Shown here: positions 2,864 through 10,791 of the stretch, one piece after another
Position numbering within the stretch: the first letter of the stretch is position 1
How the letters are laid out: each line of letters starts with the position of its first letter
Assembly: GCA_003215535.1 (NCBI GenBank)
Contig: QCKG01000003.1
Span: 1-64,000 of the forward strand
DNA: 64,000 nucleotides
Reading direction: 5' to 3'
Source of the DNA: Prochlorococcus sp. AG-409-L18
GTDB lineage: Bacteria; Cyanobacteriota; Cyanobacteriia; PCC-6307; Cyanobiaceae
Notes under the pieces: generated by a model
Told to the model about the DNA's origin: nothing
The model's database searches: none
Seen by the model: the letters and a program-made list of their open reading frames with translations, nothing else
Position numbers and translations under genes: made by a program

Positions 2864-3604
2864 ATGTCTTTAATTACAAACCCTAGGGATAAATTAATTC
2901 TTGCCCTTGATGGCATGGATTCGAGGGAGGTTTTTGCGCTTCTTGAGAAATTACCAGATTTGCGATGGGTAAAGGTTGGCCTAGAACTCTTTGTAAGTGC
3001 TGGTCCTCAAATAATTTCCGATTTAAGAGAACATGGATTAAGTGTATTTCTTGATTTGAAGTTTCATGATATTCCTATTACCATGGCAGGGGCTTGCCGA
3101 AAAGCTGCCAGAACTGGCGCATCTTTGATAAGTGTGCATGCATCAGCAGGGCGAGATGCATTGTTGGAGGCAAAGGCAGCTGCTAGTGAGGGTGCTGCGG
3201 AAGTGGGTTTAACTGCTCCTTCTCTTTTGGCTGTGACTGTTCTTACTAGTTGGAATGCTAAGAAATTTTCAGACCAACTTTTTATTGACCAACCATTGCA
3301 GAAAAGGGTTGAATTTTTATCGGTTTTAGCCTCAGAGTCAGATATGGACGGATGTATTTGTTCACCACTGGAAGTTTCAGCATTGCGCAGAATTCATCCG
3401 GCTTCATTTGAACTAGTCACTCCTGGAATAAGAATGAAAGATTCAGATTTGAATGATGATCAGGTACGGGTTTTAAGTCCTTCAGAAGCGATTTCTCAAG
3501 GGGCATCTCGTTTGGTTGTTGGGAGACCTATTACTTATGCACTTCAACCAGCAGTTGCATTTGAGAGATTTGTTAAGGAGTTAGAATGTAATTATTTTGA
3601 TTGA
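2864..3604 (+). CDS. pyrF: Orotidine 5'-phosphate decarboxylase
   Basis: Catalyses the last step of UMP synthesis, OMP decarboxylation. The 246-residue TIM-barrel protein shows LALDGMD at 13-19 and the family signature DLKFHDIP at 64-71, which holds the catalytic Asp-Lys-Asp cluster; VTPGIR and the phosphate-binding VVGRPIT motif are near the C-terminus. It lies 18 bases after tyrS. Its 3' end overlaps the 3' end of plsY on the other strand by 13 bases, so no separate terminator fits between the two genes. Confidence 0.97.
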
Positions 3605-4212
3605 CCGATTTTAGGCTCAGTTCCATTTAATAGTCTTTTGAAGTTGGTTCTGTGTCTCCATAGAACAATGGCCATGGCAAATAAACTGATGTAAAAGTAG
3701 GCAGGTCGGAATATGCTTTCTTGAAAGCTAAAAATCATAATTAATGGAAGAGAAATAGCTGCAATCATGCTTGCTAGTGAAACTATTTTGCTAATGCTTA
3801 ACACCGTTATAAATACAGCTAAAGAAGCTATTCCTACAGGCCAAGACAGGCCAAGAATCATTCCTAATCCAGTCGCGACTGCTTTCCCTCCTTTCCATTT
3901 GAGCCATATAGGCCATATGTGCCCCAATAATGCTGCGAGGCCAGCTGCAACTTGCCATTCATCACTTAAAGGTATGTCTTTGGCTAAAATTACTGGGCTC
4001 ATCCCCTTTATGACATCTATCAAGAAAACTCCTAATGCAGGCACCTTCCCAACGTGTCGGAGGACGTTCGTCGCACCTGTAGATCCTGACCCAGTTTCTC
4101 TTAGGTCGATTCCAGCGAACCATTTTCCTGCGAGATATCCACTTGGGATTGAGCCCAGGAGGTAACCAGTCAAAAGGACAAAGATCCCGGTGATTTGGTA
4201 GTCAAAAGTCAT
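3592..4212 (-). CDS. plsY: Acyl-phosphate:glycerol-3-phosphate acyltransferase
   Basis: Integral membrane enzyme that transfers an acyl group from acyl-phosphate to glycerol-3-phosphate, the first step of phospholipid synthesis. The hydrophobic protein (about 206 residues from this start) shows the PlsY signatures [23 protein letters not shown] and the [21 protein letters not shown] loop region. A longer frame opens at 4272, but ATG at 4210-4212 overlaps the upstream DUF3086 stop as ATGA and matches normal PlsY N-termini ([11 protein letters not shown]), so that start is chosen. It ends the minus-strand run from 7829 and overlaps pyrF at its 3' end. Confidence 0.95.
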
Positions 4213-5231
4213 TGAAAGAGCTCTTCTTGTTCTGCGTAGATTTCTGCTGGGCTTGCAGCAAAAGCTAGCCACAAGGGGAACTGAAGTATGGGAATTTCGA
4301 TGCTTATTTCAGCGGCATCAATAAGAATAAGCGGGACTTCTCCTCTCTCTTCAAGTCGATCTGCTCGCTCTATGACTCCATCTGCACGTTCGAAGAGAAC
4401 AATTCCGCTATTTGGGCCAAAGTCTTCTCGGCCCAGTCCCAATGCATCTTGAAGGCCTCTTCGCCATTCTCCAAGCCTTTCTGGCTGACTGGCCAATACA
4501 AGTGTTTGGAAGCGGTCTCCGTAGAGCTCCCCAAGGATTGAGATCACACCTGCCCCCATAAGAATATTTCTTGATCTGCTTCCCCGACTTGGTTGAGCCC
4601 CCCTTCCTCCCATGCTGAAGAACCAGTCTTCCAGAATTTCTATATCGCTTGGATCAAGACTGCGCCGCAATTTCCAAGGTTCAGCATAGAAATCAGGCTG
4701 TCCAAGGAACTGTTCTAAACATTCACGAATTAAGTTTTCATCAGGTTTAAAGGTATCTGCGATGGCAGGGATCTTTTCTGATTCTTCTGAGGAAGTAGCT
4801 TCTTGGATTTCATCTAATGGAGAAGGTTTTACTATTACTGGTTCAACCACCAATTCCAATTGTTCTGCGGATTGAGCAAGATCTTGAAGAGCACCCTTGA
4901 GATATTCTTGAAATCCTTTTACTCGTCTAGCAATTGAATCTGATTGACCGGTGAAAGAGGAATTGAGTTCTTCCTCAAGCTGTGTTTTACGTTTGGAAAG
5001 ATCATTTAGCTCTTGCTTCAATAACGCACGACGGTCTGTTAAGTCTGTTAATGCAATTTGCAGGAAATCATCTAGTTCAGCTTTAGGAGAGGATTCTTTT
5101 GAGATCTTTCCTAGGGGTGGAATTAATTCATTAGTAAGAGAACTCTCCTCGGGATTCTCAGCCTGAGGTTGAATTGATGCAGGTTTTGATTCTGCAGATT
5201 CTTTTTCGATTGGGGGGTCAGCTTCAGCCAT
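4209..5231 (-). CDS. DUF3086 domain protein
   Basis: A 340-residue protein with three parts: a polar Ser/Glu/Pro-rich N-terminus (1-50), a coiled coil around 55-135 (LKQELNDLSKRKTQLEEEL...), and a well-conserved globular C-terminal half from about 165 (FLGQPDFYAEPWKLRRSL..., GGRGAQPSRGSRSRN) that matches the cyanobacterial DUF3086 family as I remember it. No membrane segment is seen. The stop overlaps the plsY start (ATGA) and the DUF3119 gene ends 20 bases upstream, so translation is probably coupled to plsY. Function unknown; context suggests a role near membrane lipid synthesis. Confidence 0.72.
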   Translation of the reverse strand: MAEADPPIEKESAESKPASIQPQAENPEESSLTNELIPPLGKISKESSPKAELDDFLQIALTDLTDRRALLKQELNDLSKRKTQLEEELNSSFTGQSDSIARRVKGFQEYLKGALQDLAQSAEQLELVVEPVIVKPSPLDEIQEATSSEESEKIPAIADTFKPDENLIRECLEQFLGQPDFYAEPWKLRRSLDPSDIEILEDWFFSMGGRGAQPSRGSRSRNILMGAGVISILGELYGDRFQTLVLASQPERLGEWRRGLQDALGLGREDFGPNSGIVLFERADGVIERADRLEERGEVPLILIDAAEISIEIPILQFPLWLAFAASPAEIYAEQEELFQ

Positions 5232-5251
5232 TAAGAATAGGTTTTCGTTTT

Positions 5252-5686
5252 TTAGGTCTTAGGAGTTTGATCTAGAGGTTTAGAAATCTCTAGTGAACCA
5301 ACTCTCAATCGCAATTGATCTGCGAGTTCGTTTGGATCAAAAAGTATTGGCAATAGGTGTGGGCTTGCTTCTTCACGGAAATAAAGTATCCCTGGCAATT
5401 TCGGCAAGAAAAGGCGCCATGAGATCCATTCTTTGAATGGGAAACGACGTAACTCTTTCCCTAATTGCCATACCACTAGATCTTGGGACGTGATCTCTAG
5501 ACGCAGGATTAAGGTTTGAATTAGAAGGAATATTCCAAAAGTACTCACCAAAATGGAAGGCCAATAGGGAATAGGAAGTAGTAGAAGCACAAGTCCGAGA
5601 GCCGTTATGAGAGCAGGCAATCTCATGAATGGCTTTAAGATTATGCCTTGGTTCTGATTGGATTTAGGTGAAGATTGGTTTGACAT
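5252..5686 (-). CDS. DUF3119 family membrane protein
   Basis: A 144-residue protein with two closely spaced membrane segments (about residues 24-65: LPALITALGLVLLLLPIPYW... and VSTFGIFLLIQTLIL) followed by a soluble domain containing DLVVWQLGKELRRFPFKEW and a YFREEASPHLLPILFDP stretch. This layout resembles a membrane-anchored PH-like domain and matches the cyanobacterial DUF3119 family. Its start overlaps the MlaE-type permease stop by one base (TGATG). The biochemical role is not known; placement beside an MlaE permease suggests a partner in lipid transport. Confidence 0.7.
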   Translation of the reverse strand: MSNQSSPKSNQNQGIILKPFMRLPALITALGLVLLLLPIPYWPSILVSTFGIFLLIQTLILRLEITSQDLVVWQLGKELRRFPFKEWISWRLFLPKLPGILYFREEASPHLLPILFDPNELADQLRLRVGSLEISKPLDQTPKT

Positions 5687-6432
5687 CAGCCGAAAAGAAT
5701 TTGGGTCAGCAAAACATCCATTAAAGAAACTGTTACCAGAGTCATAACTACGGCACCTGTGGTGCTTGTCCCAACTTCTTTGGGGCCACCACGGGTGCTA
5801 AGTCCCCAACCACACGCAAGTGTGGCAATAAGAAGGCCAAAGACTAAAGCCTTTATAAGCATGAATGGTATATCGCTGAGTATGAGCCATTCCCTCACTG
5901 ATTCCCAGAAAATTCTTGGAGGAATTTGGTAAAGAGCAGTGCTACTGATTTGGCCACTCCATAAAGCAACAATAAAGAAAAGCATGCATTGGATTGGCGC
6001 CATTACAATCATTGCTATTAACCTTGGAACGACTAGGTACTCAACTGGGTCTGTCCTGAGCATTGTTATGGCATCAATTTGCTCTGTGACTTTCATCGTC
6101 CCAAGCTGTGCTGCATAAGCTGTAGCAACTTTTCCTGTTAGGAGAGTTGCAGTAAGTAAAGGGGCTATTTCTCTTGCCATCCCAATTGCAAGAAGGCCTC
6201 CAACTTGAGATCCAACACCTTGTCTGCTTAGTTCTGCCGCGACTTGAATATTAAAGACAGTTCCTGCAGCAATTCCGGTGATTAGAACAATTAGGAAGCT
6301 CCCAGGGCCTGCTTCCATTAATTGTTCAAAGAGGTCTGCTGAATTTATTTTGCCTTTTGTTGCGGCATTAATTGCTTGGCCCCCAATTATCAAACTACTA
6401 CCGAGCCTTCTAAGCCAACGTGGTGGAGTCAT
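5686..6432 (-). CDS. MlaE-type lipid ABC transporter permease
   Basis: A 248-residue integral membrane protein of the MlaE/TGD1 permease family, which with an ATPase and an MCE substrate-binding protein moves lipids between inner and outer membranes. Typical features are FLIVLITGIAAGTVFNIQVA, the loop GLLAIGMAREIAPLLTATLLTGKVA, the MKVTEQIDAI motif, and a C-terminal GGPKEVGTSTTGAVV segment. The ATPase and MCE partners are not in this window. The start overlaps the preceding GPH transporter stop (ATGA) and the stop overlaps the DUF3119 start. Confidence 0.9.
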   Translation of the reverse strand: MTPPRWLRRLGSSLIIGGQAINAATKGKINSADLFEQLMEAGPGSFLIVLITGIAAGTVFNIQVAAELSRQGVGSQVGGLLAIGMAREIAPLLTATLLTGKVATAYAAQLGTMKVTEQIDAITMLRTDPVEYLVVPRLIAMIVMAPIQCMLFFIVALWSGQISSTALYQIPPRIFWESVREWLILSDIPFMLIKALVFGLLIATLACGWGLSTRGGPKEVGTSTTGAVVMTLVTVSLMDVLLTQILFG

Positions 6433-7829
6433 GAATTTATGGCTTGGAGATCATCTTCTCTATTAGGCCAACTTCGCATGCTTAATAGACCAGAAGTTAC
6501 TAAGAATGCTGGGATAAGACCCATACATATTCGAATTGTGATCTGGGCAGTTGTCGGTTGCTCTAAAAATGTAAGAGCTCCAGTGCATTCGTTAGGAGAT
6601 TGATATCCGCTAATGGATAAAAGGAATGTCACTAGCCAGATGCTTAGAGCAACAAGGAATTTTTGAATTAAAACCATCCAAGCTGTATAGAAGCCAGCAG
6701 GTTTATCTGGGTCGCTATCTATTGCATCTGGTAGTAGAGACCAAGGAATTAGATAAGCAGTAGATGCGCCAAATCCAGATATCAAAATGCTTACTAATAA
6801 GAGTAATGTTTTGACTCCATCAACTCCTGAAAGCTGGAGGTAAGTGCTATTAGCTGCTTCGGCTGAAAGAGGAGGGATGAACATTGCTATAAGACAGCCC
6901 GCTATCCAAAGTATTCCACCCAAATAGAGGCTTTTGATTCGACCAAATCGATTTGAATAAAAGCTCCAGATTTGGAGACCGACAAGAGAGCTAACCATAA
7001 AAGGAAGCAGGATCCAGGTTGCGATAAAAGCTGGTAAACGGATCACCTGAACTAAATAGAAAAGAGCAACAGATTGCATTATTTGAAGGCCACACCAAAG
7101 AAGTAAGTAAAGGCAAAGTACTTTTAAAAAACGGGCATTTTTCATTATTCGAGCAAGTTGCTTTATCACTGGCTCCTTATTATTCGTTGGCTTTTGAGCT
7201 TTTTTTGCGAAGGGGGCTATCCCCCAGCAACAAATTAGAGTTGTAAGTGCTGCAATGGCGCCTGTAATGCGGCCCATAGAGATATAACCTTCAACCCCTT
7301 TGCTCGTAAGTATTGAGGCAATTACAAGACCGCTAAGGCTTGCCATAATGGAACCTGTAAATCGCGCTGCATTTAGTCTCGTCCTAATTGATGTGTCTTT
7401 AGTTAGCTCGGTTGAGAGTGCCGCATAAGGGAGGTTGACACTTGTATAAGCAGTCATTAGTAGAACTACCATGACTATGTAATAGGTGGTTTTTGAGACA
7501 ATCCCTCCAGGTGGAACCCACCAGATTGCAGCGAGAGTTATGCCCAAGGGTAAGGCCGCTCCAATCATCCATGGCAGTCGAGGCCCCCAACGGCTTTGAG
7601 TGTGATCACTGAGCCAGCCTATTAGTGGATCATTGAAGGCATCCCATAATTTTGTAACCATCAATAAGAATCCGCCTATCCAGACGGGTAGACCAGCAGC
7701 GCAGGTGAAGAAAGGGAGAAGATAAAAGCCAAGTTGAGATGCGGCAAGGCCTGTCCCGGCATCTCCAAGTCCGAAGGAGATCATCAATCTTCTGCGGGAT
7801 CCCTCCTTGAGCAACGAAGATATCGTCAA
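6429..7829 (-). CDS. GPH/MelB-type MFS transporter
   Basis: A 466-residue protein with about 12 hydrophobic segments. The N-terminal pattern FGLGDAGTGLAASQLGFYLLPFF and the loop LWDAFNDPLIGWLSDHTQSRWGPRLPW are typical of the glycoside-pentoside-hexuronide:cation symporter family (MelB-like), where the Asp residues of the early helices bind the coupling ion. The substrate cannot be read from sequence. It is the first gene of the overlapping minus-strand run leading into the MlaE permease, DUF3119, DUF3086 and plsY. A lipid or lysolipid substrate is conceivable from context, since MFSD2-type lipid carriers belong to this superfamily branch, but this is inference. Confidence 0.85.
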   Translation of the reverse strand: MTISSLLKEGSRRRLMISFGLGDAGTGLAASQLGFYLLPFFTCAAGLPVWIGGFLLMVTKLWDAFNDPLIGWLSDHTQSRWGPRLPWMIGAALPLGITLAAIWWVPPGGIVSKTTYYIVMVVLLMTAYTSVNLPYAALSTELTKDTSIRTRLNAARFTGSIMASLSGLVIASILTSKGVEGYISMGRITGAIAALTTLICCWGIAPFAKKAQKPTNNKEPVIKQLARIMKNARFLKVLCLYLLLWCGLQIMQSVALFYLVQVIRLPAFIATWILLPFMVSSLVGLQIWSFYSNRFGRIKSLYLGGILWIAGCLIAMFIPPLSAEAANSTYLQLSGVDGVKTLLLLVSILISGFGASTAYLIPWSLLPDAIDSDPDKPAGFYTAWMVLIQKFLVALSIWLVTFLLSISGYQSPNECTGALTFLEQPTTAQITIRICMGLIPAFLVTSGLLSMRSWPNREDDLQAINS

Positions 7830-7917: not shown

Positions 7918-7988
<71 letters not shown>

Positions 7989-10164: not shown

Positions 10165-10791
10165 TTGGTGGGCAATATTCCACAAGAATTGCGCAATGAG
10201 CTTTGGGTCTTCCCCCCAAATAAGGCTTGTAATGGAGGCACTTCATGGTGGTTAGGGTGTGATCCCGAACCTTTGTTGATTGATTGTCCACCCTTAGAAC
10301 CCTCCTCAAAGAAGGTTCTTAAAAAACTTGCGGCTGGACGCACTGCCCGGATAGTTCTTACTAATAGGGAAGCCCATGGGCGGGTGCGTGAATTGCAAGA
10401 AGAGCTTGGTTGGCCTTTGCTTTTGCAAGAGCAGGAGGCTTATTTATTGCCTGGTGTGGCTTCAATTGAAACTTTTGTGAATGAGCACACAACTCGCTCT
10501 GGAATGGAGTTGCTTTGGACTCCAGGCCCTACTCCTGGAAGCTGTGTTTTGTATGCGCCACACCCTTGGAATGTTCTGTTCTGTGGACGTTTGCTAATTC
10601 CTGTAGCGATTGATTGTCTTGCTTCACCACCTAATAGAAGGACTTTTCACCAGACTCTACAGAAAAATAGTTTGGAAAAATTGAAAAACTGGCCCCCGTC
10701 AAAGTCAAGGCCAGCACTGGCATCTGGGGCAGGATTGAGGATGCTTGCAGGAAAAAAATTGCTAGATTGGGAAGCCTGGAATGGGCTGTAA
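10165..10791 (+). CDS. Degenerate metallo-beta-lactamase-fold protein
   Basis: A protein of about 208 residues arranged like an MBL-fold hydrolase: WWLG..PEPLLIDCPP early strand pair, a central segment RIVLTNREAHGRV where the family normally has the metal motif HxHxDH, and a later WTPGPTPGSCVLY (normally TPGHTPGS) followed by LFCGRLLIP (normally LFTGD). Most metal-binding His/Asp residues are therefore replaced, so hydrolase activity is doubtful. The start is uncertain: TTG at 10165 or GTG at 10168, with an in-frame stop at 10135 and no ATG between. It is divergent from glgX. Confidence 0.65.
   Translation: MVGNIPQELRNELWVFPPNKACNGGTSWWLGCDPEPLLIDCPPLEPSSKKVLKKLAAGRTARIVLTNREAHGRVRELQEELGWPLLLQEQEAYLLPGVASIETFVNEHTTRSGMELLWTPGPTPGSCVLYAPHPWNVLFCGRLLIPVAIDCLASPPNRRTFHQTLQKNSLEKLKNWPPSKSRPALASGAGLRMLAGKKLLDWEAWNGL

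Follow-up and report, generated by a model that had tools for sequence, protein, structure and literature searches.

Little is known of how cyanobacteria, and plastids, provide their outer and photosynthetic membranes with lipids. Among described systems, the MlaFEDB transporters, to which TGD1-2-3 is comparable, are lipid ABC transporters with a MlaE permease. Lysophosphatidic acid synthesis involves PlsX and PlsY, the latter being the acyl-phosphate:glycerol-3-phosphate acyltransferase, and MFSD2A is a sodium-dependent lysophosphatidylcholine symporter. We describe here a five-gene run of Prochlorococcus sp. AG-409-L18 in which proteins akin to MFSD2A, MlaE and PlsY are encoded together with two conserved unstudied proteins, DUF3119 and DUF3086. 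The run lies in a stretch of 64,000 nucleotides (hereafter the window; assembly GCA_003215535.1, contig QCKG01000003.1, positions 1-64,000). The draft genome, made up of 43 contigs and 1.775 Mb, is probably that of a picocyanobacterium.

All five genes are on the minus strand. An MFSD2A-like carrier of the MFS_2 (GPH-type) family stands at the head (6429..7829) and is followed by the MlaE lipid ABC permease (5686..6432), DUF3119 (5252..5686), DUF3086 (4209..5231), and PlsY (3592..4212). Stop and start codons overlap as ATGA between the carrier and mlaE (6429..6432), as TGATG between mlaE and DUF3119 (5684..5688), and again as ATGA between DUF3086 and plsY (4209..4212), and 20 bases (5232-5251) separate DUF3119 from DUF3086. 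The run, its three overlaps and its single gap, as described in the initial annotation, are all recovered from the open reading frames (ORFs) and the sequence, and the families are confirmed with Pfam and NCBIfam. The five genes probably form a lipid module; precise functions are assigned to the two DUFs with much less assurance. The best overall explanation, to which we give slightly better than an even chance, is an operon that makes and moves membrane (lyso)lipids, organized on a DUF3119-DUF3086-plsY core that mlaE precedes in roughly half of the families.

In such an operon, all five genes would be carried by one transcript. PlsY would make lysophosphatidic acid at the membrane and MlaE, working with MlaF and MlaD encoded elsewhere, would shift diacyl lipids from one membrane to another. 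The MFSD2A-like carrier that picocyanobacteria have in addition may move lysolipid for re-acylation. DUF3119 would be a membrane anchor presenting a PH-like surface, and DUF3086, with its coiled coil and dead SF2-like lobe, would serve as a soluble scaffold or sensor that could couple PlsY activity to the membrane site of DUF3119. A more specific version, which we find rather improbable, is a dedicated lysolipid assembly line, where the dead-helicase scaffold of DUF3086 and the hairpin of DUF3119 would hold PlsY beside a MlaE exporter and the picocyanobacterial carrier would recycle lysolipids. The wide gene order joining a lipid-transport permease to the first acyltransferase singles out the two DUFs, and the reuse within a lipid operon of a helicase-type lobe devoid of its ATP site would, if true, be surprising.

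Gene order across the Cyanobacteriia

Of 292 genomes taken from the phylum, 139 have a DUF3119 match, which is over the cut-off in 137 of them. The two remaining matches, the sole ones outside Cyanobacteriia, are below the cut-off and carry stops. Among the listed genomes having no match, ordered by kinship and to which 133 others add, only G051 and G064 belong to the Cyanobacteriia. Adjacency was counted in 80 representatives of 29 families, chosen so as to keep families and genera from 139 Cyanobacteriia (the 137 genomes over the cut-off plus G051 and G064), 59 of which stayed outside the count. Two genes were taken as adjacent when found within 3 kb, on the same strand and in the right order. 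The counts come from domain coordinates and are lower bounds, since contig ends interrupt some loci; they are unaffected by the ORF selection through which the ORF-based locus table omits DUF3119 of G137, G175, and G181.

The genes themselves are nearly ubiquitous among the representatives. DUF3086 is present in 77 of the 80 and MlaE in 79, and all 80 have a PlsY-family match, canonical in 78, as G051 and G064 hold only a fusion copy of about 960 residues. DUF3119 precedes DUF3086 in 70 of the 77 genomes having both (26/29 families), DUF3086 precedes plsY in 61 of 77 (21/29 families), and mlaE precedes DUF3119 in 41 of 78 (15/29 families), the complete order mlaE>DUF3119>DUF3086>plsY being found in 34/80 genomes. 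For unlinked genes, about 0.06 of 77 genomes would be expected by chance (a rough estimate for a 2-Mb genome) vs. the 41 to 70 observed. The core is thus made up of DUF3119, DUF3086, and plsY, to which mlaE is more loosely attached. In most cyanobacterial families examined, DUF3119 and DUF3086 stand before plsY. In G141 and G264, DUF3119 is relocated and mlaE>DUF3086>plsY is left in place. Eighty named loci, mostly from Nostocales, show the same junctions (68 for mlaE>DUF3119, 74 for DUF3119>DUF3086, and 67 for DUF3086>plsY), and the 81 loci tabulated around the cluster likewise keep the order across families. The objection that the order might not extend beyond close relatives thus fails. Besides the cluster genes, 20 of the 81 loci have a gene of about 100 codons upstream of mlaE, in divergent orientation (for example L071:7086-7382); Pfam gave no family for the one 98-residue example submitted.

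The permease, the acyltransferase, and the head carrier

The permease is the sole PF02405 match of the genome (225.9 bits, cut-off 22.5). It also passes TIGR00056 (217.3 bits, cut-off 212.2) and matches solved MlaE chains. As in MlaFEDB, a MCE (MlaD) gene and an ABC-type ATPase gene, the latter named from its sequence, accompany it in the genome. However, mlaE sits here with plsY and the two DUFs, apart from the single MCE gene, which overlaps the ATPase gene on another contig (C32). In S. elongatus, MlaD, MlaF, and MlaE are named in one report (PMC7464499), and in the open literature searched no paper was found that brings plsY and MlaE together in cyanobacteria. A tree was built from 71 MlaE sequences, 43 of them linked to the cluster. 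Of the linked copies, 17 fall in a clade of the window's family (support 1.0) and 26 in a main class with a support of only 0.563. Another paralogue class, of 14 sequences (support 0.979), contains none of the 43 linked copies and is the only class present in G064.

PlsY, identified with Pfam, passes the equivalog model TIGR00023 (198.8 bits, cut-off 137.2), and residues 9-203 of its 206 align with the solved PlsY 5xj5 (E 1.1e-32). Its start codon is ATG, with a further in-frame GTG upstream at 4272. Many cyanobacteria also have a long protein, most frames being near 940-1060 residues, with a divergent PlsY-like domain (for example L127:2329-5196). In the one example checked, PPDK_N and PEP-utilizer domains are joined to it, and proteins of this type are the sole PlsY-family match in G051 and G064.

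The head carrier, delimited as an ORF, passes Pfam MFS_2 (239.8 bits, cut-off 27) and fails TIGR00792, the NCBI model of the GPH subfamily (182.6 bits vs. a cut-off of 231.35). Its start codon is uncertain, TTG at 7829 having an in-frame ATG near 7784 as an alternative. The carrier is found 5' of mlaE in 17/17 genomes of the window's family and in 0/62 loci from other families. The gap to mlaE is at most 24 bp in all 17 genomes, and the two genes overlap in 12. As each ORF was counted from the first possible start codon, the four overlaps that reach 91-109 bp may reflect wrongly called starts. MFSD2A is the best solved match of the carrier; the papers listed for MFSD2A and cyanobacteria look unrelated. 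Three picocyanobacterial carriers score 101.9/59.4 (window), 94.7/64.9, and 92.5/57.6 bits against MFSD2A/MelB, and a relative from Pseudanabaena scores 180.5/109.1. Two sugar-carrier controls, E. coli YagG and a Rahnella GPH symporter, reverse the preference (76.2/166.2 and 82.3/162.5 bits), though both are gammaproteobacterial, as we take the MelB reference sequences to be, and kinship may explain part of their closeness. The carrier is distant from MFSD2A, and the likeness consists in this preference of bit scores over MelB. The scores favour a lysolipid over a sugar as the candidate substrate. Of the two cargoes, lipid or sugar, first envisaged for the carrier, the lipid gains from this comparison, and the sugar is rejected as the default on these two gammaproteobacterial controls. 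Because the head carrier is MFSD2A-like, the membrane-lipid theme proposed for the run is strengthened.

DUF3119 and its losses

From its Pfam family and its model, DUF3119 looks like a transmembrane hairpin (residues 22-60, approximately) placed inside a PH-like beta domain. The model, built with 41 sequences, has a mean predicted local distance difference test (pLDDT) value of 78.8 and a predicted template modelling (pTM) score of 0.67. It shows one strand, the helical hairpin, more strands, and a C-terminal helix. The best structural match reaches a Z-score of 6.7 over 80 residues with a root-mean-square deviation (rmsd) of 3.2, a range of Z that can mean a common arrangement only. All the 50 matches shown are FERM, PTB, PH or FACT-related by title, except two RNA polymerase II entries for which the chain is unnamed. 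The PH superfold, found in FERM F3, PTB, and bacterial DUF1696 domains, is the candidate fold of DUF3119, which would differ from it by the hairpin that follows the first strand. Foldseek matches are weak (best E 0.08), the 10 Pfam families that 27 members hit (E up to 1) include no PH family, and a DUF3119 profile gave 0 hits among sequences of solved structures at E up to 10. One paper mentions in passing that DUF3119 co-occurs with MinC_C (PMC3597751), and a poultry study has a gene name written DUF31196.

Losses occur in two settings. G051 and G064 lack canonical plsY along with DUF3119, DUF3086, and any mlaE of the linked type, and both retain MCE and PlsX; G051 has no MlaE whatsoever, yet keeps its MCE gene. 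In G233, the only other searched genome from the genus of G051, the cluster genes are split over two places. Were this arrangement the ancestral one, the co-absence in G051 would require two losses or more. The second setting is a family of 50 genomes, other than that of the window, 44 of which have an uninterrupted DUF3119; the gene is decayed in three others (G147, G183, and G268) and absent from the last three (G293, G294, and G324). We take G293 and G294 to be of UCYN-A size. The search covered mlaE, DUF3086, and plsY in the three genomes with a decayed gene, and DUF3119 in the three others. G147, G183, and G268 keep DUF3086, MlaE, PlsY, and MCE without stops. These three genomes thus retain MlaE without needing an uninterrupted DUF3119.

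The losses in this family suggest a link of DUF3119 to photosynthesis. DUF3119 may indeed serve photosynthesis or the thylakoid membranes and not lipid export, the operon then tying lipid supply to the membranes that bear the photosystems. We consider this possible, with the odds clearly against it. The six genomes with a decayed or absent gene are small (1.4-3.1 Mb), those with a decayed gene have only psbA/psbD fragments, most with stops, or nothing, where the larger relative G143 has full copies, and outside Cyanobacteriia DUF3119 is limited to the two interrupted matches below the cut-off. However, the correlation is weak, as genome reduction alone strips out numerous genes at an uncalibrated background rate. 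Moreover, two genomes of 2.8-2.9 Mb in the same family keep DUF3119, the psbA/psbD data for the six small genomes come from the three with a decayed gene, and G051 and G064 show psbA/psbD matches despite having no DUF3119. Finally, the table of an APEX study includes inner-membrane and periplasmic proteins, and states that the MlaE homologue had earlier been localized to the inner membrane (PMC7880944).

Another proposal would make the two DUFs additional components of the MlaE ABC transporter, replacing parts such as MlaB. This agrees with the position of mlaE directly 5' of DUF3119 in 41/78 genomes, often with a stop/start overlap in the window's family. We nevertheless hold it to be unlikely, since mlaE>DUF3119 is the loosest of the three junctions (15/29 families vs. 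26 and 21), mlaE, MCE, and DUF3086 are uninterrupted where DUF3119 is decayed, and the MCE/ATPase pair has its own locus. The initial annotation saw in the two DUFs candidate partners connecting lipid synthesis with transport to the outer membrane or thylakoid. On the same grounds, a role as dedicated partners of MlaE is not supported; the three genomes with a decayed DUF3119 have uninterrupted mlaE, MCE, DUF3086, and plsY genes, and the predicted domain of DUF3086 is a degenerate SF2-like lobe and not a transport-like one.

DUF3086 and the boundaries of the cluster

The DUF3086 model (47 sequences, pLDDT 78.0, pTM 0.56) consists of a long helix (residues 50-125) forming a predicted coiled coil, a disordered, flexible linker, and an alpha/beta domain (156-338). 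In VIA-align, the matches shown for the latter domain are mainly motor lobes of SF2 type, such as UvsW (Z 12.7 over 159 residues, rmsd 4.2) and XPB (Z 12.6 over 133 residues). Foldseek gives a best E of 1.2e-4, and lists Rho and other RecA-like chains as well. Profiles were also compared, with 75 DUF3086 domains on one side and, on the other, 30 SF2 lobes that nine genomes within the phylum provided. hhalign aligns the two in register with a probability of 87% (P 4.1e-6) and a score of 42.8 vs. at most 17.2 in 30 column shuffles, and profiles made from subsets are weaker (50.9, 1.8, and 28.8%). The motif Ia-like PERLGEWRRGLQD is nearly invariant, and an aspartate occupies the motif II position in 75/75 sequences. 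When the DUF3086 profile is run against sequences of solved structures, 52 hits are obtained, and the three alignments displayed are coiled-coil matches. DUF3086 thus shares fold and profile similarity with the N-lobe of SF2 helicases (UvsW, XPB, SNF2), but has an N-terminal coiled coil, no Walker A motif (GK[ST] in 0/75 sequences), and one lobe only, a second RecA-like lobe being absent from the 340-residue model. It looks like a single degenerate SF2-like lobe joined to a coiled coil, and not like a helicase; a working helicase is rejected on the missing GK[ST]. UCYN-A4 has a DUF3086 gene with a weak match to UCYN-A2, according to one report (PMC11637426).

The lobe raises the question of whether DUF3086 could be a nucleic-acid- or nucleotide-binding regulator and not a scaffold, through which the operon would couple lipid synthesis to RNA or DNA. 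The in-register alignment with SF2 lobes and the near-invariant PERLGEWRRGLQD are in line with such a role, which the lack of GK[ST] and of a second lobe, as well as the weaker subset profiles, make unlikely.

An operon making and moving membrane (lyso)lipids is favoured by the conserved order, the tight carrier-mlaE junction, the lack of linked copies in the second MlaE class, the MCE/ATPase pair found elsewhere in the genome, the MFSD2A preference of the carrier, and the joint absences in G051 and G064. Several observations weigh against it, even if it is the explanation that we prefer. In the gene order, mlaE is not directly 5' of DUF3119 in 37/78 genomes (some of these are contig ends, not counted apart), and 16/77 genomes have no plsY after DUF3086. 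One linked mlaE, from G036, clusters in the tree with second copies found in G014 and G095, and no MCE gene is found in the 81 cluster loci, where a single query from the genome itself was used and distant copies could be missed. DUF3119 is decayed in G147, G183, and G268 while the other genes stay, G177 (locus L104), a single contig of 3.0 Mb, has DUF3119 but no DUF3086 match, and the absences in G051 and G064 may come from masking and not from a clean deletion. The models of the two DUFs are of moderate confidence (mean pLDDT 78-79), the open literature searched contains no functional study of either protein, and the kinship of the two sugar controls bears on the carrier.

At its lower end, the cluster is bounded by pyrF (2864..3604, plus strand; ORF and Pfam), a convergent gene outside the cluster with a 3' end overlapping that of plsY by 13 bases. 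At the upper end, tRNA-Gly(TCC) (7918..7988, plus strand), also outside the cluster, diverges from the carrier. A housekeeping superoperon, maintained for the sake of expression and with no shared function, could be argued from the unrelated neighbours in the window's family (pyrF, tyrS, and glgX), but we judge it improbable, as the core order holds in 26/29 families where these flanks mostly do not persist. A promoter scan gave 3 sites vs. a shuffle mean of 8.7, and a terminator scan of both strands gave 7 sites vs. a shuffle mean of 4.8, neither yielding a clear signal. Phage records with a match number 95, and the five shown cover query positions 108-183 only, which is the tRNA-Gly stretch. 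Further along the window, positions 10165-10791 (plus strand) encode a 208-residue protein with a weak, sub-threshold match to metallo-beta-lactamases.

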